Positions 2 to 64,000 of a DNA stretch of 64,000 nucleotides are shown in pieces. A program made the translations under genes and the position numbers. The notes under the pieces are model-generated. The model did not search any database and was not told where the DNA came from. It was given only the letters and a program-made list of their open reading frames with translations. Each line of letters opens with the position of its first letter. The first letter of the stretch is position 1. The stretch comes from an uncultured Latescibacterota bacterium (GTDB taxonomy: Bacteria; Latescibacterota; UBA2968): NCBI GenBank assembly GCA_951812755.1, contig OX638329.1, forward strand, positions 1,597,339 through 1,661,338. Direction: 5' to 3'.

Positions 2-763
2 GTGGATCAGATTGCTATGGGCGAGGTGTGTTGCGAGGCGGGTAGAGCAGCGGCTGAGTGGGTGATTTGCGCGGTTGATCTGGCGATGGCGAGTCGCATT
101 GACGGTATTGTGACGGCGCCTTTGAATAAGGAGGCGATGAATTTGGCGGGTTATCCCTACGCAGGGCATACGGAATTGTTGGCTGAGAAATCAGGTGCAG
201 GACGCGCACATCTCATGCTGGTCTCCAATCGCATGAATGTGTCGCATGTGACGGGGCATATTGCGTTGCACGAGGTTCCCGATAGGCTTACGGTCGATCT
301 GATTTACGATACGATTCGGCTGACCCGCGATGTGCTTATCGGCATGGGGAAATCAGATCCCAGGGTTGCGGTATGCGGGTTAAATCCACACGCGGGCGAG
401 AATGGTTTGTTTGGTAGCGAAGATGCGGAGATCGTGCGTCCGGCTGTTGAAAAGGCTTTGAGCGAAGGCTGGCGCATTGATGGGCCTCTGCCTGCGGATA
501 CGACTTTTTTGAAGGCCTACAATGGGCTGTACGATGGCGTGGTGGCGATGTATCACGATCAAGGCCATGTGCCCGCAAAACTGGTGGCGTTTGACGAGGC
601 CGTCAATGTGACTCTGGGCCTGCCGATTGTGCGGGCGTCTGTGGATCACGGTACGGCTTATGATATCTCGGGCAAGGGCGTTGCCAAATCCGTGAATATG
701 TTGCAGGCGATTCGCGTGGGGAGTAAGTTGGCGATTTATAGAAGTTTGAAGTGTGAAGTGTGA
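2..763 (+). CDS. pdxA: 4-hydroxythreonine-4-phosphate dehydrogenase, 5' end cut by window
   Basis: PdxA oxidises 4-phosphohydroxy-L-threonine in the cytosol during pyridoxal-phosphate synthesis. Only the last 253 residues are in the window; the family is about 330 residues, so the N-terminus lies upstream and the GTG at position 2 need not be the start. The three metal-ligand histidines of the family are visible: GHTELL (His56 counted from position 2), YHDQGH (His185) and DHGTAY (His216). The family segment GLNPHAGENG is also present. The ends of the active site are therefore complete. It is followed after a short gap by a convergent ridA gene. Identification is firm. Confidence 0.95.
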   Translation: MDQIAMGEVCCEAGRAAAEWVICAVDLAMASRIDGIVTAPLNKEAMNLAGYPYAGHTELLAEKSGAGRAHLMLVSNRMNVSHVTGHIALHEVPDRLTVDLIYDTIRLTRDVLIGMGKSDPRVAVCGLNPHAGENGLFGSEDAEIVRPAVEKALSEGWRIDGPLPADTTFLKAYNGLYDGVVAMYHDQGHVPAKLVAFDEAVNVTLGLPIVRASVDHGTAYDISGKGVAKSVNMLQAIRVGSKLAIYRSLKCEV

Positions 764-798
764 AGAAGCACCCGTCTGGGGGTGTTGGGTGGGCCTTC

Positions 799-53098: not shown

Positions 53099-53144
53099 TA
53101 ATTTTCCGGATTACCTTTGATTGTCACCGTTAAGAGGATGATTG

Positions 53145-54398
53145 ATGCTCAAACTATGCTATCGACACGCCTTCGTATTGTGTGGCCTGATATTGATGTC
53201 ATGGACGACACTGGTCGCTGAGACAACGGTGCTGGGAAATGCCCGGGCCAGTGTCGCGTTAACGCGTTTTGTACAAGCTGTTGTCGATTCCAATCACCGC
53301 GTGCAGGCGGCACGCGCGGGTTTAGAAGCGAGCAGTGCGCTTAGGGATGCGGCGTCGCGTCCCATCTACAATCCCGAGTTTGCGTTCGAAGATGAAAATT
53401 TAGGGCGCAAGTTGCGCTTATTCGCAATTAGTCAGACGCTGGACTGGGGCGGCAAAGGCAAGGCGCGTACCGCAGTGGCGGAGTTGGATCGTCTCGTTGC
53501 CGAGATGGAGTATCTGGATGTCCGATGGATGGTTGCGATAGATTTGCTCAATGGTCTCGCGCAATACCAGACAGGCGTTGAACGCAATCGCCTGGCCGAG
53601 ACGCGCCAGCAGTTGATAGAGGAGTTTGCGATGTTGGCGCAGCGTCGGTTTGAGGTCGGCGAATTAAACCAGGTGGAACTCGATCTGGCTCTCCTTGCTT
53701 CGACAGAGGCGCGCATTCGAAAAGCAATGACGGCCGCCGATCTGGCCGAGGCGCGGCAAGCGGTGTACAGGCTTGGTCCGCGCATACCCGAGGCGCAGTG
53801 GCCCCCTCTTCCCGAAAAACTACCGGAGGTAATTGAGCAGAGTGCTGACCCACAGGTGCTGGTGCAGGCATTACCCGGGGTTGTCGCCGCGCGGCACCGG
53901 GTCGATATGGCTGATGCTGTAGTTTCACTGAGGCGCCGCGAACGTCGCCCAGACCTGACGCTGGGTATCCACACTGGTGCCGAAGACGAAGACAGGTTTT
54001 TTGGCCTGGCTCTGTCCATTCCGCTACCTATCCGGAATCGCTTTACACATGAAGTTACCGCGGCCATGGCAGAGCGCGTCCAGGCGCAACAACTCGCCGA
54101 TGACGCGATGAAGATGGCACACGCCTCCCTGACCAGTGCGGCAGAGCGCTACCAGTTATCGCGCTCTGCCTGGGATGAGTGGGAACATACAGGGCGGAAA
54201 AGGCTGGACCGACAAAGCGAGCAACTGCGCCAACTCTGGCAAGCCGGGGATCTCAGTACAGTCCACTATTTGGCGCAATTGGAACAAACGATACAGGTGC
54301 GAGAAAGTGCCATCGAGTTGCACGAGCAGGTCTGGCGTGCCTGGTTCGGGTGGCTTCTCGCAGCGGGCCAGGTGGATGCCTGGGTCGGTCTTAAATGA
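53145..54398 (+). CDS. czcC: TolC-family outer-membrane factor of CzcCBA-type system
   Basis: A 417-residue outer-membrane efflux protein: signal peptide (to about LVAET), then two long helical OEP repeats with VGELNQVELDLALLAS in repeat one and SIPLPIRNRF in repeat two. AGAGG sets ATG 53145 rather than TTG 53142. The stop overlaps ATG 54395 in the next gene's frame. It is the duct for the downstream RND pump. Confidence 0.82.
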   Translation: MLKLCYRHAFVLCGLILMSWTTLVAETTVLGNARASVALTRFVQAVVDSNHRVQAARAGLEASSALRDAASRPIYNPEFAFEDENLGRKLRLFAISQTLDWGGKGKARTAVAELDRLVAEMEYLDVRWMVAIDLLNGLAQYQTGVERNRLAETRQQLIEEFAMLAQRRFEVGELNQVELDLALLASTEARIRKAMTAADLAEARQAVYRLGPRIPEAQWPPLPEKLPEVIEQSADPQVLVQALPGVVAARHRVDMADAVVSLRRRERRPDLTLGIHTGAEDEDRFFGLALSIPLPIRNRFTHEVTAAMAERVQAQQLADDAMKMAHASLTSAAERYQLSRSAWDEWEHTGRKRLDRQSEQLRQLWQAGDLSTVHYLAQLEQTIQVRESAIELHEQVWRAWFGWLLAAGQVDAWVGLK

Positions 54399-54433
54399 AT
54401 TACAACACACAAAGAACCGCATTGGAGGCCCTG

Positions 54434-55534
54434 ATGACAATGTTGAAATTTTGGGCGGTGTGTCTGTGTTTGATACTGATTCAACCGGTGTATGCCGAGG
54501 ATGCTGGTCATGATGCGGCAGTTGAGCTGAGCGCAGAAGAACAGCACGCGACGGGCATTGTTATTGGCACAGTTGAACCGCGTGCGCTCAACGAGACCCT
54601 TCGGATTCCGGGCGAGGTTGTGATCAATGCGTACCGGTCTGTGCTCGTTACTCCGCGCATTACCGCACAGGTTGTGGCGCGTCATGCGAAACTCGGCAAT
54701 GAAGTCGAAGTCGGTCAACCTCTGGTGGCGCTCTCGAGTATTGAGATGGCCGAAGCGCAAGGGGCATTGATTCTCGCGAATCGAGAATGGCAACGTGTCA
54801 AGACCCTCGGTCGGCAAGCCGTGTCTGAGCAGCGCTATACCGAAGCGCATGTTGCACAACAACATGCGCTCGCCAAAGTTCTCGCTTACGGTATGACTAT
54901 GGCTCAGGCAGAGGCGCTTATGCAATCGGGAGACGCCAGCAAAGCGACCGGTACCTTTGACTTGCTCGCCCCACAGGCGGGCACGGTGCTACAGGACGAT
55001 TTCATCGTCGGTGAATTGATCGAGCCTGGTCGGGTACTCATCAATATCAGCGATGAGTCGGTGATGTGGGTGGAAGCACATATGGTGCTGACCGCGTCAC
55101 CCAAAATCGATATTGGCTCCAATGTGCGGGTCAGCGCTGATGGTATCAACTGGTTTCAAGGCACGGTCATTCAACGCCATCACCACCTCGACGAAAAAGT
55201 TCGAACTCAGGGCTTGCGCATTGAGGTGCCCAACACGGCTCATAGCTTGCATTCGGGTCAGTTCGTCGAAGTAGAGGTTGTCACCGCGACGCGCACACCA
55301 GAACTCGCTGTGCCGAGTGCGGCATTGATAATGATCAAAGGCTCACCGAATGTATTCAAGATCGAGGACGGACACGAGTTCCATGCCGAGGCTATTGAGG
55401 TCGGTTCCACGGTGGGAGAGTGGACGGTCGTTCGCGGTGGGCTTATTGCGGGTGATGAGATCGCTGTGTCTGGCGTTTTCCACCTCAAGTCATTGATGCT
55501 CAAGTCTTCGCTTGGTGCAGGCCATGCACATTAG
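54434..55534 (+). CDS. czcB: RND periplasmic adaptor (CzcB-type)
   Basis: A 366-residue membrane-fusion protein with a signal peptide (LKFWAVCLCLILIQPVYAED). GGAGG 5 bases upstream supports ATG 54434; ATG 54395, overlapping the czcC stop, would put 13 extra residues before the signal. The barrel-sandwich hybrid domain (LGNEVEVGQPLVALSSIE) and beta-barrel follow. No heavy-metal-binding domain of the CusB kind is present, which argues for Zn/Co/Cd substrates. Confidence 0.85.
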   Translation: MTMLKFWAVCLCLILIQPVYAEDAGHDAAVELSAEEQHATGIVIGTVEPRALNETLRIPGEVVINAYRSVLVTPRITAQVVARHAKLGNEVEVGQPLVALSSIEMAEAQGALILANREWQRVKTLGRQAVSEQRYTEAHVAQQHALAKVLAYGMTMAQAEALMQSGDASKATGTFDLLAPQAGTVLQDDFIVGELIEPGRVLINISDESVMWVEAHMVLTASPKIDIGSNVRVSADGINWFQGTVIQRHHHLDEKVRTQGLRIEVPNTAHSLHSGQFVEVEVVTATRTPELAVPSAALIMIKGSPNVFKIEDGHEFHAEAIEVGSTVGEWTVVRGGLIAGDEIAVSGVFHLKSLMLKSSLGAGHAH

Positions 55535-55543
55535 GAGAACTGC

Positions 55544-58500
55544 ATGCTACAAGCACTGGTAGAAACTTCTCTGCGTTATAAATTCCTGGTGTTGATCGCC
55601 TTTGGTATCGTGGCTTTTTTGGGTTGGCGCGCAGTTGTCACCGTGCCGATCGATGCGTTTCCAGATGTGACACCCGCTCAGGTCAATATCTATACCGAGT
55701 CGCCCGGGCTTGCCGCTGAGGATGTGGAGCAGCTTCTCACTTTTCCCATTGAGTCCGGCATGGCCGGGTTGCCAAAGGTGAAGGAGATCCGCTCGGTGAG
55801 TCTCTTCGGCTTGTCCTATGTCGCGGTCTATTTTGAAGACGATATGGATATTTACTTCGCGCGGCGTCTGGTGATGGAGCGGTTACAGGAAGTAGGGGAG
55901 CGTATCCCAGAAGGTTATGGCACGCCCGAGATGGGTCCCAACTCGTCCGGACTCGGTCAGGTTTTCTGGTACACACTGGAACGGGCGGATGAAAAGCTCA
56001 ATGCGGCGATTACCGATATGGACTTGCGGACGCTGCACGACTGGAATGTGCGTTTGATTTTGCGAACTGCTTCCGGTGTTGATGATGTCATTTCATGGGG
56101 GGGGCAGGAGCGACAATTTCAGGTCGTGATGGATCCCCTGAATCTCATCAAATACGACCTGACCTTCACCGATGTCATGGAAGTGATTGAGGCCAACAAC
56201 CGCCAGGTTGGCGGTCAATATATTAATCTTGGCTCAGAGCAATACCTCGTGCGCGGCCTGGGCTTGGTCAGAAACGAGCGCGACATCGGCGATATGGTCG
56301 TCAAGGTTGAAGGCGGCGCGCCGGTATATTTGCGCGATATCGCCGAGATCCGGCAGGGGGGCGCACTCCGTTTTGGTGCTGTGACACGCGATGGCAAGGA
56401 GGTTGTCCTCGGGATGGTGCTTTCGCGCATCGGTGAGAATGCCGCCCGGGTGGTTGAAGCGACGAAGGAAAAGGTCGCCATTATCGATCAGTCGCTGCCA
56501 GATGGCGTCGTCCTGCGACCCATTTATGAACGCACCGACCTCGTTGAAAAGGCAGTGGGTACGGCTACGAATGCATTATTTCAAGGCGCGATTCTGGTGG
56601 GTGTTATTCTGTTTTTGTTTCTCGGCGAATGGCGACCAGCGGTGGTTGTGATTGTCTCTATTCCGCTCACGATGCTCATTGCATTTGTGTTCATGGACGA
56701 AGCGGGTCTCTCCGCCAACCTCATGTCACTTGCCGGCCTCGCCATTGGTATTGGCATGATTGTCGATGGTGCAGTGGTCGTCGTGGAGAATTCATTTCGC
56801 GTTATGGCAGAACGCAGGGCAGAGACAGAGAGGGTCAACCGCACTGATGCGGTATTGGCTGCTGCCCGCGAAGTCGTGAATCCGATGACTTTTGCTATCT
56901 TGATTATTATGGTGGTATTTCTGCCTTTGTTTGCGCTCGAGGGACTGGAGGGCAAGCTGTTCAAGCCGATGGCGTTTAATATCACGTTTGCCATGGGTGG
57001 AAGTTTATTGCTCGCGCTGACACTGATTCCCGTGCTCGCGGCCTTGTTGTTAAAACCGCAAAGAGAACGCGAAACATGGCTCGTACGGGTTATTAAACCG
57101 CGCTATCTATCCTTGCTTACCTGGTCATTGGCGAATAGAAAAGTGGTGGTTGGCTGTGCCGTGGGTTTGCTCGTTGCGAGCATGGCGCTGTTCCCCTTCC
57201 TCGGAAAAGAGTTTATGCCGCAACTGCAGGAAGGGTCAATTATGTGGCGCGTGACCTCGATCCCTTCGGCTTCGCTCCAGCATTCAATCGAGATTTCCAA
57301 GGATATCGAGAACGCGCTGTCGAAGTTTCCAGAGGTTGAAACCACCGTGGCAATGATCGGCCGTGCCGAGAAAGGCGAAACCGCCGACGCCAATTACATG
57401 GAGATTTATACGGCACTCAAGCCCGAGAGCGAATGGCCCGGAGACCGCGATATCAAAGAGCTTGCCGAGGCCATGCGCGAGAAGTTGGAAGTGGTAGTAC
57501 CGACGGCTGTTGTCGCTTTTACCCAGCCGATTCAGATGCGCGTAGAGGAACTGATCTCAGGGGTTCGCGCCACGCTTGCCGCCAAGATTTACGGTGAGGA
57601 TCTGGCAGTGCTCGATCAGTTGAGCGAGGAGGTCAAAGACGTCATTGCCGAAGTTGAGGGTGTGGCGGATCTCTCGATTGAGGCCAATGTCGGTAAGCCT
57701 CAGATCCGCATTCAGGTCAAGCGCGAACAACTCGCCCGGTTTGGGGTGAATGCAGACGATGTGTTGTCCGTTGTGCGCACCGGCATCGGCAATGAGCCAG
57801 TTACTACTATGATTGATGGCGTGCGCCGATTCGATATTACAGCGCGATTCGATGATCGATCAAAAGCGTCGGTGCAGTCGATTCAGCGCATTCCATTGAA
57901 AACAAGCGATGGGGCGATTGTTCCTCTCGCGACTGTTGCTGATGTCAGTGTTGCGGAAGGCTACTCTTTTGTGCGCCGCGAGCAATTGCAGCGTTACGCA
58001 GTGATCCAGATGGATGTACGAGGGCGCGATGTCGATGGTTTTGTGCGCGATGCCAATGCGGCTATCGATGCACAGATTGACTTGCCTCCGGGCTATTGGA
58101 TCGAGTGGGGTGGCGCGTTTGAGAATCAACAGCGGGCGTTGGCGCGTTTGTCGGTGATTGTGCCGTTGACGATCTTTTTTATTTTTGTGTTGCTCTATAC
58201 TGCATTTAATTCGGTTAAGTACGCCGCGCTGATTATTGCCAATGTGCCGTTTGCAGCAATTGGAGGGATGGTGGTCCTTTTTATTAGTGGGCAATACGTA
58301 TCTGTGCCTTCGGCGATTGGATTTATCGCGGTGTTTGGCGTGGCGATGTTGAACGGTATTGTGCTGGTGAGCTTTATCAATGAGTTGCGCGAAAAAGGAC
58401 TCGGTGTTGCAGAGGCCGTGCGACGGGGGGCGGAGTTGCGTTTGCGTCCTGTTTTGATGACCGCGAGCACGTCCATTCTCGGATTGGTGCCTTTGTTGTT

Positions 58501-58633
58501 GGCGACGGGTGTTGGTGCAGAAACGCAGCGTCCGCTCGCTTCGGTAGTGGTCGGTGGTTTGATCACTTCGACGTTGTTGACGCTCGTGTTGCTACCGGTG
58601 ATCTACGAGTGGATTGAAACGCGGCGGCAGTAA
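55544..58633 (+). CDS. czcA: Heavy-metal RND transporter, CzcA/CnrA-type
   Basis: A 1029-residue pump of the HME-RND class. The TM4 proton-relay motif reads GMIVDGAVVVVENS, and SQPIQMR-like AFTQPIQMRVEELISGVRA is the CzcA-type periplasmic segment; it lacks the CusA methionine triad. So it should export divalent cations (Zn, Co, Cd or Ni). It ends 68 bases before an IS1380 element, and the permease-SPFH gene begins beyond that. Confidence 0.9.
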   Translation: MLQALVETSLRYKFLVLIAFGIVAFLGWRAVVTVPIDAFPDVTPAQVNIYTESPGLAAEDVEQLLTFPIESGMAGLPKVKEIRSVSLFGLSYVAVYFEDDMDIYFARRLVMERLQEVGERIPEGYGTPEMGPNSSGLGQVFWYTLERADEKLNAAITDMDLRTLHDWNVRLILRTASGVDDVISWGGQERQFQVVMDPLNLIKYDLTFTDVMEVIEANNRQVGGQYINLGSEQYLVRGLGLVRNERDIGDMVVKVEGGAPVYLRDIAEIRQGGALRFGAVTRDGKEVVLGMVLSRIGENAARVVEATKEKVAIIDQSLPDGVVLRPIYERTDLVEKAVGTATNALFQGAILVGVILFLFLGEWRPAVVVIVSIPLTMLIAFVFMDEAGLSANLMSLAGLAIGIGMIVDGAVVVVENSFRVMAERRAETERVNRTDAVLAAAREVVNPMTFAILIIMVVFLPLFALEGLEGKLFKPMAFNITFAMGGSLLLALTLIPVLAALLLKPQRERETWLVRVIKPRYLSLLTWSLANRKVVVGCAVGLLVASMALFPFLGKEFMPQLQEGSIMWRVTSIPSASLQHSIEISKDIENALSKFPEVETTVAMIGRAEKGETADANYMEIYTALKPESEWPGDRDIKELAEAMREKLEVVVPTAVVAFTQPIQMRVEELISGVRATLAAKIYGEDLAVLDQLSEEVKDVIAEVEGVADLSIEANVGKPQIRIQVKREQLARFGVNADDVLSVVRTGIGNEPVTTMIDGVRRFDITARFDDRSKASVQSIQRIPLKTSDGAIVPLATVADVSVAEGYSFVRREQLQRYAVIQMDVRGRDVDGFVRDANAAIDAQIDLPPGYWIEWGGAFENQQRALARLSVIVPLTIFFIFVLLYTAFNSVKYAALIIANVPFAAIGGMVVLFISGQYVSVPSAIGFIAVFGVAMLNGIVLVSFINELREKGLGVAEAVRRGAELRLRPVLMTASTSILGLVPLLLATGVGAETQRPLASVVVGGLITSTLLTLVLLPVIYEWIETRRQ

Positions 58634-58701
58634 ATATCCTTATTTTTATTTCTTGCAGTACGGGAGATATTATCTTATAATCCGATATTAGACTTTTCTA
58701 A

Positions 58702-60409
58702 CCCGACTAATTCATGAACAGTAATGTTTGGTTGTGTATGGCAGTCGGCGTGGGTTCCAAGCATCAAAATTAGGGCGTTTGCAGTCTTGTCTGCCTGCAT
58801 AGGCGTGTTCATAAGGTGCAAGCCGCCCAGCATCATCACCTGCCCGTCCCTGACGGTGTCAAAAAGTACAGACTCGCCCTTGCCTGCTCTTTGTGTGGAG
58901 CGGTCGGTGTATTTGTAAAGTCAGCCAATGATGGTGCAGCCCCCTTCCCCTCCCCGGTTGACAAGTTATGGCACAGCTTTTGCCAGATTGCTCAGGATTT
59001 TATCATACAAGTGTGGCAATGGAAATGACATAGGCAGATGGAAGGTGATCTTGGTTTTCAACTCACAGACGCGTCCGGCGACTTTAAGGAAGCGATTTTG
59101 GAGTGTATCAAACTGTGCGTTTATCCACATTGTGCCTTGTAATCCGATGTGCGCTAAGGTGTGCAACAAGACATAGGCAGCCGAATGGAGGAAGAGGCGA
59201 AACTGATTGGCTCCAAAAGCGTGACAGGATGTGCGGTCTGAGTGGAGAAAGGTCTTGTGATTTTTAATGAAGTTTTCCATCTGTCCGCGCGCACAATAGA
59301 TGTTTTGGTAGATAAAGGAGGCCCTTGAACTTTCAAGGTTGGTCACGACAAAGCGTGTGTTTTGGCCTCGGGTGGTGATTTCAGCTTTGCAGATGATGCG
59401 TCTGGCACAGGCCCAAGTCTGGGCTTGGTAATAAAATGAGGTAAAAAGTCGCACCGGTTGCCCGGTATCTGCATACAGGCTTTTGGCCTGATCTATAAGG
59501 GGCTTTGCCAAGGTTAAAAGTCGGGTATTGGCGGTCTGTCCGAGGATAAAATAGAGGTCCTTTGTCGCACAGAAGTCCTGGACTTCTGGACTTGAGAAGT
59601 GGGCATCGCCTCGCAAAAAGAGTGCCACATGAGGCCAAGCCTGACGAATATAAGCGACTAACCGCTTGAGAATCGTGACAATCTGTTTGCCATCAGGACG
59701 CACACCCGGACGCAAAATCGTCGTGATTAGCTTACCCGATTGCCCTTCGTAAATGTGCAAGGGTTGGTAGGCGTAGGCACCCAAATACCCATTGAATAAG
59801 GACAACTGCTGCGTCCCATAAACCGTGTCTTGTGTATCATCTATATCTAAGATGATCGACGAAGGCGGCTTTTTATACGAGGCAATAAAACAATCGAGGA
59901 AGGCACGCGCAACGCGATACAAATCGCTTCTGCTCATCTGATTCTCAAACCGACTCATCGTGGGTTGACTACTCAGATCTTTCCCCTGCAAGGGCAAGCG
60001 ACCACACGCCGCCTTGAAGCCGGGATCGCTTTTTAAGGCATCGCAATCATTGGCATCTTCATACCCGCAGGCGATTTGAAACACCCGCTGCTTGACCAAC
60101 TCTGACACACTGTGAGCCACATAACTTGGATGCCGACGGTCTTTGACCGCCTCAATGATGCGTGATAAAATGCCGGTTTTGGCCTCCACTTCTCTCAGCA
60201 ATAAGACACCGCTATCGCTGGTGAGAATACCCCCATCAAAGGCGAGGTCGAGACGTTTTCCGAAAATGCTTGCCAAAGGAACCTTGCTATGATTATCTTG
60301 TGTGCTCACGGTAGTTTCTCCCAAGTTTATTGTTCAATGGTTATGCGTGTAACCTAATATAATACAATAACTTGAATAGGGAAACTACCTTTTTTATGAA
60401 TTTTTCGGG
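58702..60409 (-). mobile_element. IS1380-family insertion sequence
   Basis: A 1,708-bp element, the usual size for the family. Ends are CCCGACTAATTCATGAA on the left and the inverse of CCCGAAAAATTCATAAA on the right (about 13 of 17 matches). A 4-base target duplication, CTAA, lies at 58698-58701 and 60410-60413. The region 58634-58701 before it and 58702-58965 inside it carries no supported gene. Confidence 0.85.
58966..60309 (-). CDS. IS1380-family transposase
   Basis: A DDE transposase of about 447 residues. It begins with an FDGGILTSDSGVLLLRE segment typical of the family; the catalytic core includes SIILDIDDTQD and FLRGDAHFSSPE, and the C-terminal RGQMENFIKN. GTG 60309 with GGGAG upstream is preferred; TTG 60324 would add five residues. 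It is complete, so the element may be active. Confidence 0.88.
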   Translation of the reverse strand: MSTQDNHSKVPLASIFGKRLDLAFDGGILTSDSGVLLLREVEAKTGILSRIIEAVKDRRHPSYVAHSVSELVKQRVFQIACGYEDANDCDALKSDPGFKAACGRLPLQGKDLSSQPTMSRFENQMSRSDLYRVARAFLDCFIASYKKPPSSIILDIDDTQDTVYGTQQLSLFNGYLGAYAYQPLHIYEGQSGKLITTILRPGVRPDGKQIVTILKRLVAYIRQAWPHVALFLRGDAHFSSPEVQDFCATKDLYFILGQTANTRLLTLAKPLIDQAKSLYADTGQPVRLFTSFYYQAQTWACARRIICKAEITTRGQNTRFVVTNLESSRASFIYQNIYCARGQMENFIKNHKTFLHSDRTSCHAFGANQFRLFLHSAAYVLLHTLAHIGLQGTMWINAQFDTLQNRFLKVAGRVCELKTKITFHLPMSFPLPHLYDKILSNLAKAVP

Positions 60410-60494
60410 CTAAAGACGATATATCGTCTATCTTGGACCATTTTACAAAAATAAAAATATTCTGTAATCAAACATATCCTTCCCATCAGAGGAG

Positions 60495-62864
60495 GTGAGG
60501 GCTATTGATGCTCCAATTAGTACAAGTATTGGCTTAATACAAGCAGTGACCAGTTTCTTTGATTTTCTTTTGATGTCGTTCCTGTTATTAGCACCTATGC
60601 TAATGCTGGGGCTATTTCTGTCTGGTCTGATTCACGTATTTATCTCGCGTGAGGCCATTCTGAGGTGGTTGCGCGAAGATAGCTTGAAATCCGTGAGTAC
60701 GAGTGCGGCCGTTGGTGTGCCCGTGCCGCTTTGTAGTTGCTCGGTTGTGCCAGTAGTTGCCGAGATGCGCAATAAGGGCGCGTCCCGTTCGTCCTGTATG
60801 TCTTTTTTGATAACGGCGCCGGAAACAGGTGCGGACTCGATTCTGGTCACGAATGCGTTTTTTGGATTCATCGCTGCTATTGTCAGGCCCTTCATCAGTT
60901 TTATTACCGCGGTGGTAGCTGGTATCTTTTGCATTGGTCTCATACGAGATGATAGCGACGAGGCCAGGGCGAGAGATCACGACCATGATCACGACCATGA
61001 TCACGATCATGATCACGACCACGATCACGATCATGATCACGACCATGATCACGACCATGATCACGACCATGATCACGGCCATGACCACGATCACGATCAT
61101 GGGCACGAGCCTCTGGTGCCCGGAAGCGATGATTGCTACGTCAGTCCCTCACAGTTGAAGGCATTATTTTATTCCTATTTGAAAGGGCTTACTGAGACGG
61201 TCAGCCAGCACAAACTCGGATCATGGGTAAAACCGGATTTTTATCGCGACATGATTCCGGCCGACGACAAACAAACTTCTGAGGATGACCCGTCCAAATA
61301 TAAACACGATCTGGATTTTAAGGAGATCGTCAGGCATATTTTCCGCTATGGCTTTGTCGAAATAGCGGATGATATTTTGTTTGCGCTGCTCGTGGGCGTG
61401 GCACTGGGAGGTGTGCTCTTTCTGGTGATTCCGAGCGATTTGATGTCAAATGAGTATGCGCGCTGGCTGTCCTACCCCGTTATGGTGCTGGTTGGTGTTC
61501 CTCTCTATATTTGCGCGTCTGCGAGTACTCCAATAGCTGCCGCGCTGGTCGCCAAGGGGTTCAGCCCCGGAGCGGCGATGATTTTTCTTATGACTGGGCC
61601 GGCGACCAATACGGGTACTATTGCGATTATCGTCAGTCAGTTTGGGGCGCGCTTTGCGACCATCTATGTGTCAGCGGTGATCGCTGTTACCGTTGCTCTG
61701 GGCATTGTAATCGATATTGTACTTCTCGCCATCGGCGTGACGGTGCCCCTGTACCTCGGTCCCTCGGAGTCAACGACTATTCAGCTCATACAATGGGGCA
61801 GTGCTTTTGCCCTGATCGCCCTGATCATCTGGCGGTTCCGCGCAGGTGCTTTTAAGAGCGGTTATGAGGATTTGCTGCTCAATCTCCGCCCTGTGGCCGA
61901 ACCCTGTAAAGCGTTCTGGGGACGCGTGACGCGCAACCGGTCTTTTATGGGCATTTTCACTCCCGCCACGCCGTTGGGAATGACGTTTTACGGTTTGCTG
62001 ATCGCTCTATTCCTCGGTAGCGGTTTTACTGTGATTCCTCCGGGCCATGTCGGCTATGGGCGTCTGTTTGGTGCGGTTTATTGGCAGGACTTGCAGCCGG
62101 GATTGCAATATCTCGCGCCTCGTCCCTTTGTGCAGGTGGATAAATGGCCGGTGAAAGAAGTGAAATACATTACAAACGCGAGCCCGTACGAATTGATTTC
62201 GGGCGATCTGAACATCCTCTCTCTTACCATCAATGCGCAGTACCGTGTAAAGGATCCCTATATTTATCATTACCAGATCCAGAATCCGACAGAGATCATC
62301 AAAGATGCCATCAAGGATCATCTGCGCGAGTTTGTATCTGCCCGCAATCTGGATCATCTGCTCAGTGTTCATCGCGCAACCCTGGAGCAGCATATCAGAC
62401 AGTTGTTTGCGGGCACTGTCGAGGCGTCGCGCCCGGTGTTCGAGAGCGTTGAACTGATTGATGTAAATCTGGTAAGTATTAACCCGGCGGCAGAAACAAT
62501 GAGTGCTTTCCGGGAAATCTCGAGTTCTCAGGAGGATCGAGAGCGAATCATCGTCAATGCCCAGCGTTTCTTGACGTCGTTAGTTCCCCGTGCACACGGA
62601 AATGCGATTTACGAAGTGGAGCAGGCGAACGGCGAGGCGTTCAGGAAAGTAACCACTTCTGCCGCTGAAGCAGATGCGATAAAAGCCGTGGCTAATGCAG
62701 TGCAGCGTGCGCCCAATGTTCTCCAGACCATGCTGTGGCGAGAGAAGCTGGAAACCGCGCTTTCTGGCAATGCCAAAATTATCGTTCCCAACAAGCGGAG
62801 CCTGGAAAAGGTCGCGCTGTGGAAGAGTAAGCCGGCGAAGACAAACGCGAACGCCCAGCACTGA
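60495..62864 (+). CDS. SO_0444-like metal permease fused to Asp-His repeat and SPFH domain
   Basis: A 789-residue fusion. Residues 20-150: first permease half, with the family CSCSVVP motif (Cys80, Cys82) and SFLITAPETGADSI. Residues 161-204: 44-residue Asp-His repeat, likely a metal-binding loop. Residues 280-425: second permease half with CASASTPIAAALVAKG and TGPATNTGTI. Residues 495-512: membrane helix, then an HflK-like SPFH domain (TVIPPGHVGYGRLFG, VKEVKYITNASPYE, coiled tail). Known SO_0444 Cu/Zn exporters are about 400 residues without SPFH. The start is uncertain: GTG 60495 overlaps its own GGAGG, ATT 60504 is better spaced. hflC- and hflK-like genes follow. Confidence 0.8.
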   Translation: MRAIDAPISTSIGLIQAVTSFFDFLLMSFLLLAPMLMLGLFLSGLIHVFISREAILRWLREDSLKSVSTSAAVGVPVPLCSCSVVPVVAEMRNKGASRSSCMSFLITAPETGADSILVTNAFFGFIAAIVRPFISFITAVVAGIFCIGLIRDDSDEARARDHDHDHDHDHDHDHDHDHDHDHDHDHDHDHDHDHGHDHDHDHGHEPLVPGSDDCYVSPSQLKALFYSYLKGLTETVSQHKLGSWVKPDFYRDMIPADDKQTSEDDPSKYKHDLDFKEIVRHIFRYGFVEIADDILFALLVGVALGGVLFLVIPSDLMSNEYARWLSYPVMVLVGVPLYICASASTPIAAALVAKGFSPGAAMIFLMTGPATNTGTIAIIVSQFGARFATIYVSAVIAVTVALGIVIDIVLLAIGVTVPLYLGPSESTTIQLIQWGSAFALIALIIWRFRAGAFKSGYEDLLLNLRPVAEPCKAFWGRVTRNRSFMGIFTPATPLGMTFYGLLIALFLGSGFTVIPPGHVGYGRLFGAVYWQDLQPGLQYLAPRPFVQVDKWPVKEVKYITNASPYELISGDLNILSLTINAQYRVKDPYIYHYQIQNPTEIIKDAIKDHLREFVSARNLDHLLSVHRATLEQHIRQLFAGTVEASRPVFESVELIDVNLVSINPAAETMSAFREISSSQEDRERIIVNAQRFLTSLVPRAHGNAIYEVEQANGEAFRKVTTSAAEADAIKAVANAVQRAPNVLQTMLWREKLETALSGNAKIIVPNKRSLEKVALWKSKPAKTNANAQH
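60975..61106 (+). repeat. Asp-His codon tandem repeat (132 bases)
   Basis: Forty-four codons of alternating Asp and His with two Gly (22 His, 20 Asp), built largely from GATCACGACCAT units. Inside the metal permease gene. Such repeats expand and contract by slippage without frame loss when the unit is six bases. Confidence 0.9.
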
Positions 62865-62879
62865 TAGGGAGAAAAAATT

Positions 62880-63767
62880 ATGACTTTTAAAAGAATTGTC
62901 ACAGCCATTGTCGTGGTTTTGGTTGGTGTAATCGCGTATAGCTGTTTTTACACCATCCATGAAACGCAACAAGGCGTGTTGACCCACTTTGGCAAAATCT
63001 CGCCGCCCGTCAAAGGACCCGGGCTGCAGGTCAAATGGCCGTGGCCAATATCGAAGATATACAAGGTTGACCGGCGCATACAGACACTCAACGGCCTTAC
63101 CCACGAGTTGATTACGGAAGACCAGAAGAATGTCCTGGTTGACGGTTATACGATGTGGCGTATTGATGATCCCATCAAGTATGTCGAAGCTATCCGAACC
63201 GATGTAAATGCCGTTGATCGTTTGCGGGAGCTCTATTTTGCAAGTAGCGGTATTGTCATCAGCAATAGGGCACGCGATGCGTTCATCAGTCTGGGGTTGG
63301 AACACGAAGACCTGCATGAGGCGTGCCGCGAAATGCACAACAGAATCGCGCCAATCGCCAAAGCCAACTATGGGATTGAGGTGATACGGGTCGGTATTGT
63401 CGAATACACCTTGCCGGTGGAGAACCGCCCGAGCGTGATCCAGCGAATGATTTCCGAGCGTGCGCGCATTGCCACCCGCTATCGCAGCGAGGGAGAAGAG
63501 AAGGCGATAACTATCGAGGCTCTTGCCATTAACGAGCACGAAAAAATTATGGCTGACGCCCATGCAGAAGCGACGACTATTCTCGGCATTGCCGAGGCTC
63601 AGGCAATGGCAGTGCTGGGCAAAGCCTATCGGGAAGATCCGGAGTTCTACAAGTTTATCCGCGCACTCGACAGCTACGATCTGATTATTGACAAAAACAC
63701 GACGCTCATGTTGCCGGCAGACAGTGAATTATTCAAATATCTGGATAGCAAATCTATACCCAGGTAA
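62880..63767 (+). CDS. HflC-like SPFH/Band 7 protein
   Basis: A 295-residue inner-membrane protein with one N-terminal helix (residues 6-25) then an SPFH domain. HETQQGVLTHFGK, GPGLQVKWPWPI and the DQKNVLVDGYTMWRI segment are HflC-type, as is the long helical part with AEATTILGIAEAQA. HflC with HflK forms a ring-shaped assembly that regulates FtsH. Here it is 15 bases after the permease-SPFH gene and 9 before an HflK-like gene. Which partner it uses is unknown. Confidence 0.85.
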   Translation: MTFKRIVTAIVVVLVGVIAYSCFYTIHETQQGVLTHFGKISPPVKGPGLQVKWPWPISKIYKVDRRIQTLNGLTHELITEDQKNVLVDGYTMWRIDDPIKYVEAIRTDVNAVDRLRELYFASSGIVISNRARDAFISLGLEHEDLHEACREMHNRIAPIAKANYGIEVIRVGIVEYTLPVENRPSVIQRMISERARIATRYRSEGEEKAITIEALAINEHEKIMADAHAEATTILGIAEAQAMAVLGKAYREDPEFYKFIRALDSYDLIIDKNTTLMLPADSELFKYLDSKSIPR

Positions 63768-63776
63768 GATGGGGCT

Positions 63777-64000
63777 ATGACGATGAACGAACAACAACCA
63801 TTACCGCGCAGTACGCGCATGATCTATGCCGCCTTTGATTTCGTTGGGCAGTATCCCAAAAGGCGGATCCTCACAGTGCTCACCGCGATTGTCCTCGCTG
63901 TGGTGTTGGGCAGTGGTTTCTACGTTGTAAAGAAAGAGGAAGAGGCTGTGGTTCTGCGTTTCGGGAAGGTCGTGGCTACAGACGTCGGTCCCGGTATACA
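63777..64000 (+). CDS. HflK-like SPFH protein, 3' end cut by window
   Basis: Only the first 74 codons are present: a short cytosolic N-terminus (MTMNEQQPLPRSTRM), a membrane helix (LTVLTAIVLAVVLGSGFYVV) and the start of an SPFH domain (KKEEEAVVLRFGKVVATDVGPG). This resembles HflK. It starts 9 bases after the HflC-like gene and continues beyond the window. Confidence 0.75.
   Translation, partial: MTMNEQQPLPRSTRMIYAAFDFVGQYPKRRILTVLTAIVLAVVLGSGFYVVKKEEEAVVLRFGKVVATDVGPGI

Follow-up and report, generated by a model that had tools for sequence, protein, structure and literature searches.

SPFH proteins, among them stomatin, prohibitin, flotillin and HflK/C, occur in all domains of life, and the role of most of them is unsettled. 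In red cells, stomatin forms domes around AQP1 and UT-B (PMC12407830), and the cages formed by HflK/C enclose FtsH (PMC12048511). The present study concerns a stretch of 64,000 nucleotides (the window) from an uncultured Latescibacterota bacterium (contig OX638329.1, positions 1,597,339 to 1,661,338), in which one gene joins a Cu/Zn-type permease to an HflK-like SPFH domain and is followed by an HflC-like and a further HflK-like gene. Both the fusion and the triad that it heads recur in unrelated genomes, with the transporter position filled by metal transporters of various kinds, and it is therefore likely that metal transport and an SPFH assembly are functionally linked.

A split relative of this arrangement is already on record in Pseudomonas. 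The genes PA2434–PA2439 are up 5.6- to 14.4-fold in zinc depletion (PMC4542158, Table 2), and their proteins are raised as well (PMC11761036). The PA2439 promoter is shifted in vitro by Zur together with zinc, in a study in which hmtA was not repressed by added zinc (PMC8531726). In strain PA14 the SPFH genes are known as PaFlo5-7, and their deletion has led to only subtle phenotypes in the reported assays; the main text of that 2026 study contains neither the word “hmtA” nor the word “transporter” (PMC13086221). As in the window, three SPFH genes stand in the order polytopic SPFH, HflC-like and HflK-like and are accompanied by a metal transporter gene. Unlike in the window fusion, however, the transporter (HmtA, a P-type ATPase that imports Zn and Cu) is a separate gene, and the Pseudomonas SPFH sequences are very divergent. 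The original prediction, that no system of this kind had been described, overlooked these zinc-depletion-induced genes and their Zur-bound promoter region. Our searches of the open-access literature turned up neither a description of a metal transporter–SPFH fusion nor one of the triad as a family.

The fusion gene and its SPFH partners

The first gene of the triad (Table 1) matches Pfam ArsP_1 over residues 21–407 (150 bits) and Band_7 over residues 513–684 (57 bits). Its permease part scores 322.7 bits against the NCBIfam SO_0444 model (NF033936), above the curated cut-off of 300, which is also exceeded at loci L117, L112, and L174. It shares the CSCS motif with that family, whose stand-alone members, in contrast, have no SPFH part. 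SO_0444 is required for growth under Zn or Cu stress, as judged by mutant phenotype (PMC3219624), and a member of the family is induced by Cd and Cu (PMC10092412). C340 and a GPATN motif are kept in the 21 fused permeases, as are the two cysteines C80 and C82. The Asp/His tract that joins the permease halves keeps its position in near homologs and varies in length. The start codon is a GTG immediately 3′ of AGGAGG, an assignment that is uncertain. Against the HflK model (TIGR01933; cut-off 159.4) the SPFH part of the fusion scores 129.5 bits and the third gene 153.1 bits, both below the cut-off. The two following genes begin after gaps of 15 and 9 bases. Thus, the description of a Cu/Zn permease, an Asp-His tract, and an HflK-like SPFH domain in a single gene, with two SPFH genes close behind, was accurate.

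The triad resembles the E. coli HflK/HflC–FtsH system in its homologous SPFH subunits, in an HflC-like gene that passes the hflC cut-off, and probably in its topology, but differs in having three different subunits, one of which carries a metal transporter, and in lying apart from the housekeeping genes. The host replicon is a closed chromosome of 6.53 Mb with seven Band_7 places, and its housekeeping hflK–hflC pair is found separately, at 6.13 Mb. Because the SPFH parts are clearly relatives of HflK/C, and because one split relative exists in Pseudomonas, the system is better regarded as HflK/C-type than as wholly new.

The fusion is intact in 14 genomes of the window’s class, including seven of the same genus (the window genome among them). 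Where they could be estimated, ratios of nonsynonymous to synonymous substitution rates (dN/dS) between the window and its relatives lie between 0.01 and 0.31 for the permease, the loop, the linker, the SPFH domain, and the two next genes; purifying selection acts on every part of the fusion, linker included. The original prediction had allowed that the gene might be an assembly join. Nothing was found in favor of a join or of a nonfunctional chimera, to which we give practically no credence: the closed chromosome, the recurrence of the intact fusion, and the dN/dS values together exclude an assembly artifact and likewise led us to reject a pseudogene.

Recurrence with other metal transporters in unrelated bacteria

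A domain-wide sample of 386 genomes, one per species and including many kin of the window and many drafts, was scanned with fusion profiles. Besides the 14 genomes in the class, ArsP–SPFH fusions were found in 13 genomes outside it, belonging to 9 families, while full-length fusions of a CDF transporter to an SPFH domain were found in 13 genomes of 11 families. In G087 and G098 a CDF (Cation_efflux) domain is fused to Band_7, with an HflC-like and an HflK-like gene coming next. One CDF–SPFH triad (G495) was found among 185 sampled Gammaproteobacteria, and another is carried by the Aquibium oceanicum plasmid NZ_CP018172.1, which is conjugative by PLSDB typing. The genes of the plasmid triad are annotated hflK, hflC, and hflK, with genes for a heavy-metal P-type ATPase, PCuAC, and SCO nearby; its fusion protein (WP_072608301.1; L076:9001–10548) bears the label “FtsH protease activity modulator HflK,” which hides the transporter domain. 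A third transporter type appears in G328, where a P-type ATPase–SPFH fusion of 1040 residues heads a triad. Pfam confirmed seven further ArsP–SPFH fusions, four CDF–SPFH fusions, and the ATPase–SPFH fusion. The recurrence in unrelated genomes that had been proposed as a check on the original prediction is therefore found, and the idea that the triad is confined to the window’s phylum is rejected by the same scans.

The order of the triad is nearly constant. HflC-like and then HflK-like genes follow 27 of the 29 fusions outside the window clade (the 13 ArsP and 13 CDF fusions of the sample, the plasmid, G495, and the ATPase fusion), the exceptions being G154, where no such genes come next, and G300, where the contig ends. 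Many junctions overlap by 4 bases, as translational coupling would predict. Among the matches listed for the CDF–SPFH profile, every fetched SPFH gene of at least about 560 residues carries one of the three metal-transporter families; a long frame in G088 is misleading, the real gene having 402 residues, and a 513-residue SPFH protein of G011 has no recognized N-terminal domain. With a median RpoB identity of 55% among the fusion hosts and named references, the hosts are only very remotely related to one another, and the repeated synteny makes contamination an unlikely cause of the recurrence. Long SPFH genes in unrelated genomes had also appeared in the initial search for relatives, and a first scan of contigs returned no named fusion, its only informative loci being L024 (stand-alone) and L033 (the Pseudomonas triad).

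Most CDF fusions have the HxxxD pairs of CDF transporters of the YiiP/FieF type (a few rows, some of them with displaced starts, escaped the simple pattern used). The CDF fusions differ from YiiP/FieF in carrying a transmembrane helix and SPFH domain in place of the cytoplasmic ZT_dimer domain, which was not found in the CDF fusions scanned. The P-type ATPase fusion was considered as a common form and rejected, as it is a single case in 386 genomes. As side observations, G328 holds two triads (L115 and L130), one headed by the P-type ATPase–SPFH fusion and the other by a CDF–SPFH fusion, and the G154 CDF–SPFH fusion that stands without the two next SPFH genes (L121:4271–6085) comes immediately after a trigger-factor gene.

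A tree of 110 SPFH sequences shows clustering by gene position and not by genome: position 2 falls with HflC, position 3 beside canonical HflK, and position 1 on further HflK-side branches. All 28 position-1 sequences, whether joined to ArsP, CDF, or ATPase domains, form one branch with a support of 96 in the Shimodaira–Hasegawa-like approximate likelihood ratio test, and canonical HflK forms another with 93, in a data set that excludes L121 and the very long Pseudomonas sequences. These were quick trees, computed without bootstrap. A single clade of positions 1 and 3 against canonical HflK is not rejected (approximately unbiased test, p-AU 0.68). The triad sequences lie outside the canonical HflK and HflC branches, and the triad is distinct from the canonical hflK–hflC pair of its genome. 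Pseudomonas position 2 also groups with HflC, and its positions 1 and 3, on branches of 3.2–3.9, have no firm place. In the tree of permeases, fused forms are interspersed with stand-alone ones at three or more points, in agreement with exchange of transporter type on one triad. Collectively, and at the level of sequence, these comparisons demonstrate the fusion, the gene order, the orthology of three positions across unrelated bacteria, and the exchange of transporters on one monophyletic SPFH subunit. Their simplest reading would be one ancient triad whose position-1 subunit has kept a metal transporter while the type of transporter was exchanged.

Topology and a candidate transporter-bearing SPFH assembly

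Over 31 proteins, the 25-residue stretches that precede the SPFH helix contain 161 Lys and Arg, against 85 after the helix (which was misplaced in L128). This excess points to a linker in the cytoplasm and an SPFH part in the periplasm, the arrangement of HflK/C, as the probable topology. CDF transporters have six helices and P1B ATPases eight; all three transporter types are expected to end in the cytoplasm before the SPFH helix, the permease doing so according to the structure model. The predicted number of membrane crossings from the His-rich loop to the SPFH domain is even (six by hydropathy, and four or six on AlphaFold secondary structure), and the loop should therefore face the side of the dome. 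SPFH proteins lead the Protein Data Bank fold matches of the model, with HflK of HflK/C first; a sequence search for a solved relative of the permease part found none.

We consider it an even call whether the three proteins form an HflK/HflC-type SPFH assembly with a metal transporter built in through subunit 1, and transport under or beside a periplasmic dome is, in our judgment, just as evenly poised. In such an assembly the fusion would bring its transporter into the ring at the base of the dome, and the HflC-like subunit 2 and HflK-like subunit 3 would complete the ring. The extra helix would cross the membrane, the SPFH part would form a periplasmic dome as in HflK/C, and the transport pathway and His-rich loop would open under or beside it. 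Such a dome would keep the transporter within one defined patch of membrane, and metal would enter or leave a confined periplasmic space instead of diffusing freely, to be buffered there or passed to partners such as ZIP, the binding protein, and, in this genus, CzcCBA. Ring formation, membrane side, and confinement are all inferred. The closest structural precedent for a dome is stomatin around AQP1 and UT-B, likewise an SPFH protein associated with a transporter, with a dome here only presumed; stomatin domes differ in being eukaryotic and noncovalent, with one SPFH type and no metal (PMC12407830). A broader and more tentative version, which we hold to be somewhat improbable as a whole, would see here an ancient SPFH compartment with an exchangeable transporter, a dome-covered periplasmic chamber enclosing the flux of Zn/Cu-type ions, of which the Pseudomonas HmtA/SPFH operon is the split import form.

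Several observations weigh against the proposed assembly. The ZIP neighbors and HmtA are importers, contrary to a chamber purely for export. The recurrence of ZIP genes beside ArsP–SPFH triads in G129, G181, and G318, which are unrelated to the window, nevertheless counts in favor of the assembly itself. The fused transporters themselves would be exporters, and net transport may run either way; thus, the proposal that metal export is organized by an SPFH assembly holds for the tie between transport and the assembly, through the recurrence of different transporters in one slot, and only in part for export. Furthermore, the His-rich tract is absent from the CDF-type triads and from most distant ArsP-type triads and so is not essential to the design; as a general mark it was rejected, the long tracts being restricted to the window clade and Pseudomonas. 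The AlphaFold monomer model of the fusion is moderate, with a predicted local distance difference test (pLDDT) score of 68 and a predicted template modeling score of 0.49. Finally, two species of the window’s genus keep a stand-alone permease nested in the fused clade, and a permease can therefore shed its SPFH module.

This last point also bears on a reading in which the SPFH ring is only a scaffold or allosteric regulator that clusters or stabilizes the transporter in a lipid microdomain, with no enclosed metal space. Such a role, which we rate as unlikely, accords with the association of stomatin with AQP1 and UT-B, with the exchange of transporter types on one scaffold, and with the survival of the permease in G001 and G007 after loss of the SPFH block. 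It leaves unexplained why the sampled fusions carry metal transporters alone and why His-rich segments lie beside SPFH parts in the window clade and in Pseudomonas.

The main rival is FtsH quality control, in which the triad would be a variant of HflK/C that recruits or excludes FtsH, so that proteolysis sets the amount of transporter according to metal status; we allow it a limited chance. In its favor, position 2 groups with HflC and position 3 with HflK, proteins whose cages enclose FtsH, and the window genome has one FtsH. The housekeeping hflK–hflC pair elsewhere in that genome speaks against it, as does the finding that no ftsH was noticed beside the triads, whose neighbors are only partly annotated. 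Of 30 position-1 domains, 19 retain an Arg of canonical HflK (E. coli R193) that all 29 position-3 domains have lost; the published FtsH contact, “Arg191,” does not match MG1655 numbering.

In a further alternative, the transporter-like domain would serve as a metal sensor controlling an SPFH stress assembly and would itself transport little. The Pseudomonas position-1 membrane domain, which has no Pfam family and no recognizable transporter motif, could be read in this way. The transport-site residues are conserved in the ArsP and CDF fusions, however, and the stand-alone relatives are transporters, so we regard metal sensing as very unlikely. That the Pseudomonas domain is a degenerate CDF was rejected (profile comparison probability 0.8%), and its AlphaFold model (pLDDT 52) is too poor for a structure search.

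The natural covalent link names a cargo for SPFH proteins, namely metal transporters, three unrelated families of which are joined to a single SPFH subunit, and makes the enclosure or control of transporters by SPFH domes directly testable in bacteria. It also provides a hypothesis of function for proteins labeled as modulators of FtsH protease activity, such as WP_072608301.1, and a candidate explanation for the zinc-linked SPFH genes of Pseudomonas.

Operon context and variants

Table 1. Features of the window and its 3′ extension; residue numbers refer to the fusion protein.
Feature	Position	Strand	Remark
czcC, czcB, czcA (metal RND efflux)	53142–58633	+	same strand as and upstream of fusion
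Sigma70-like promoter, TTGCAG-N17-TATAAT	58653–58681	+	3′ of czcA, read from sequence
Insertion sequence (IS) transposase	58966–60324	-	between promoter and fusion, window genome only
Perfect 16-bp palindrome AGACGATATATCGTCT	60414–60429		upstream of fusion
Fusion gene, 789 residues	60495–62864	+	single open frame, one stop
Permease part, SO_0444/ArsP_1	residues ~13–450		
PLCSCS motif, residues 78–83	60726–60743	+	C80 and C82 invariant in 21 fused homologs
Asp/His(/Gly) tract, 44 residues (161–204)	60975–61106	+	loop joining permease halves
Predicted cytoplasmic linker	residues ~451–490		
SPFH transmembrane helix	residues ~496–514		
HflK-like SPFH domain with coiled coil	residues ~515–775		
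HflC-like SPFH gene, 295 residues	62880–63767	+	175.7 bits, passes NCBIfam hflC (TIGR01932) cut-off 134.4
Third SPFH gene, HflK-like, 440 residues	from 63777 past window edge (64000) to genome position 1662437	+	L008
LivK-like binding protein and 163-residue membrane protein	L008:7081–8819 = genome 1662418–1664156		

Downstream of the triad (L008) lie a gene for a Peripla_BP_6 (LivK-like) periplasmic binding protein, an orphan without ABC partners, a gene for a three-helix membrane protein that matches no Pfam family, and a gene for a ZIP transporter that has its own Asp/His loop. No P-type ATPase gene is found in the operon at the window locus, ZIP and the permease being present instead. This six-gene arrangement is shared by seven genomes of the genus, by five from a second family within the order, and by G044, a member of the class (some companion genes being uncalled in single loci), and the binding protein and small membrane protein accompany this form of the triad. 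At G041 the locus ends with the contig after the second gene. Outside these groups, the arrangement is also found in G312 and is partly visible in G338. The triad is present in G175 too, where its companions were uncalled. Protein identities of 60–77% for the six-gene cassette between such distant hosts suggest that it may have moved by horizontal transfer.

The CzcCBA genes do precede the fusion, as predicted, with an IS intervening in the window genome; they stand upstream in the genus and, farther off, in G041 and G044, and are missing from the sister family, so that adjacency is limited to the genus and one other family of the class. A CDF gene and CzcA lie beside the operon in G044. Aligned sister genomes have a matching promoter site 3′ of czcA and just a short spacer, without the IS, between that site and the fusion. 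The position of the IS between a conserved promoter and the fusion may alter expression of the operon in the window genome. The palindrome AGACGATATATCGTCT was rejected as a metal operator: it has 2 copies in the 6.5 Mb genome, the second near no recognized metal gene, and its 14-bp core lies upstream of the fusion in two sister genomes only.

In G001 and G007, of the same genus, a stand-alone permease of 416 residues is directly followed by ZIP; the locus lacks all three SPFH parts along with the binding protein and the small membrane protein. These permeases are sisters of the window permease within the fused clade, and this nesting indicates that the SPFH block was most likely lost there. 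In this clade the loop of the stand-alone permeases is short and often contains Cys, with at most 3–6 His per 20 residues against 10–12 in fused ones, an observation that rests on few events. The fusion of G338 (L176:5685–8417) is extended at its C terminus by a Gly/His/Lys-rich tail of about 130 residues.

The Pseudomonas form was represented by locus L033, which we equate with PA2434–PA2439 by gene content and annotation, not by comparison with the PAO1 sequence. It encodes a position-1 protein of 644 residues with six predicted helices before the SPFH domain, an HflC-like protein with a His-rich N terminus, an HflK-like protein, and then a separate P-type ATPase. Of the 59 Pseudomonas genomes sampled, 39 carry position 1, with the His-rich HflC tail wherever the HflC gene was called. 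Across loci L179–L193 the HflC N terminus is strongly His-rich genus-wide, and position 1 has a conserved six-helix domain. In one genome (G609:C1:934961–936876) the position-1 gene is split into two frames at the junction of the membrane and SPFH domains. Additional hflK–hflC pairs on plasmids of Vibrio, Roseibium, and Methylophaga (L079, L077, and L080) lie next to or near genes for Na+/H+ or cation:proton antiporters, possibly a second association of SPFH proteins with ion transporters.

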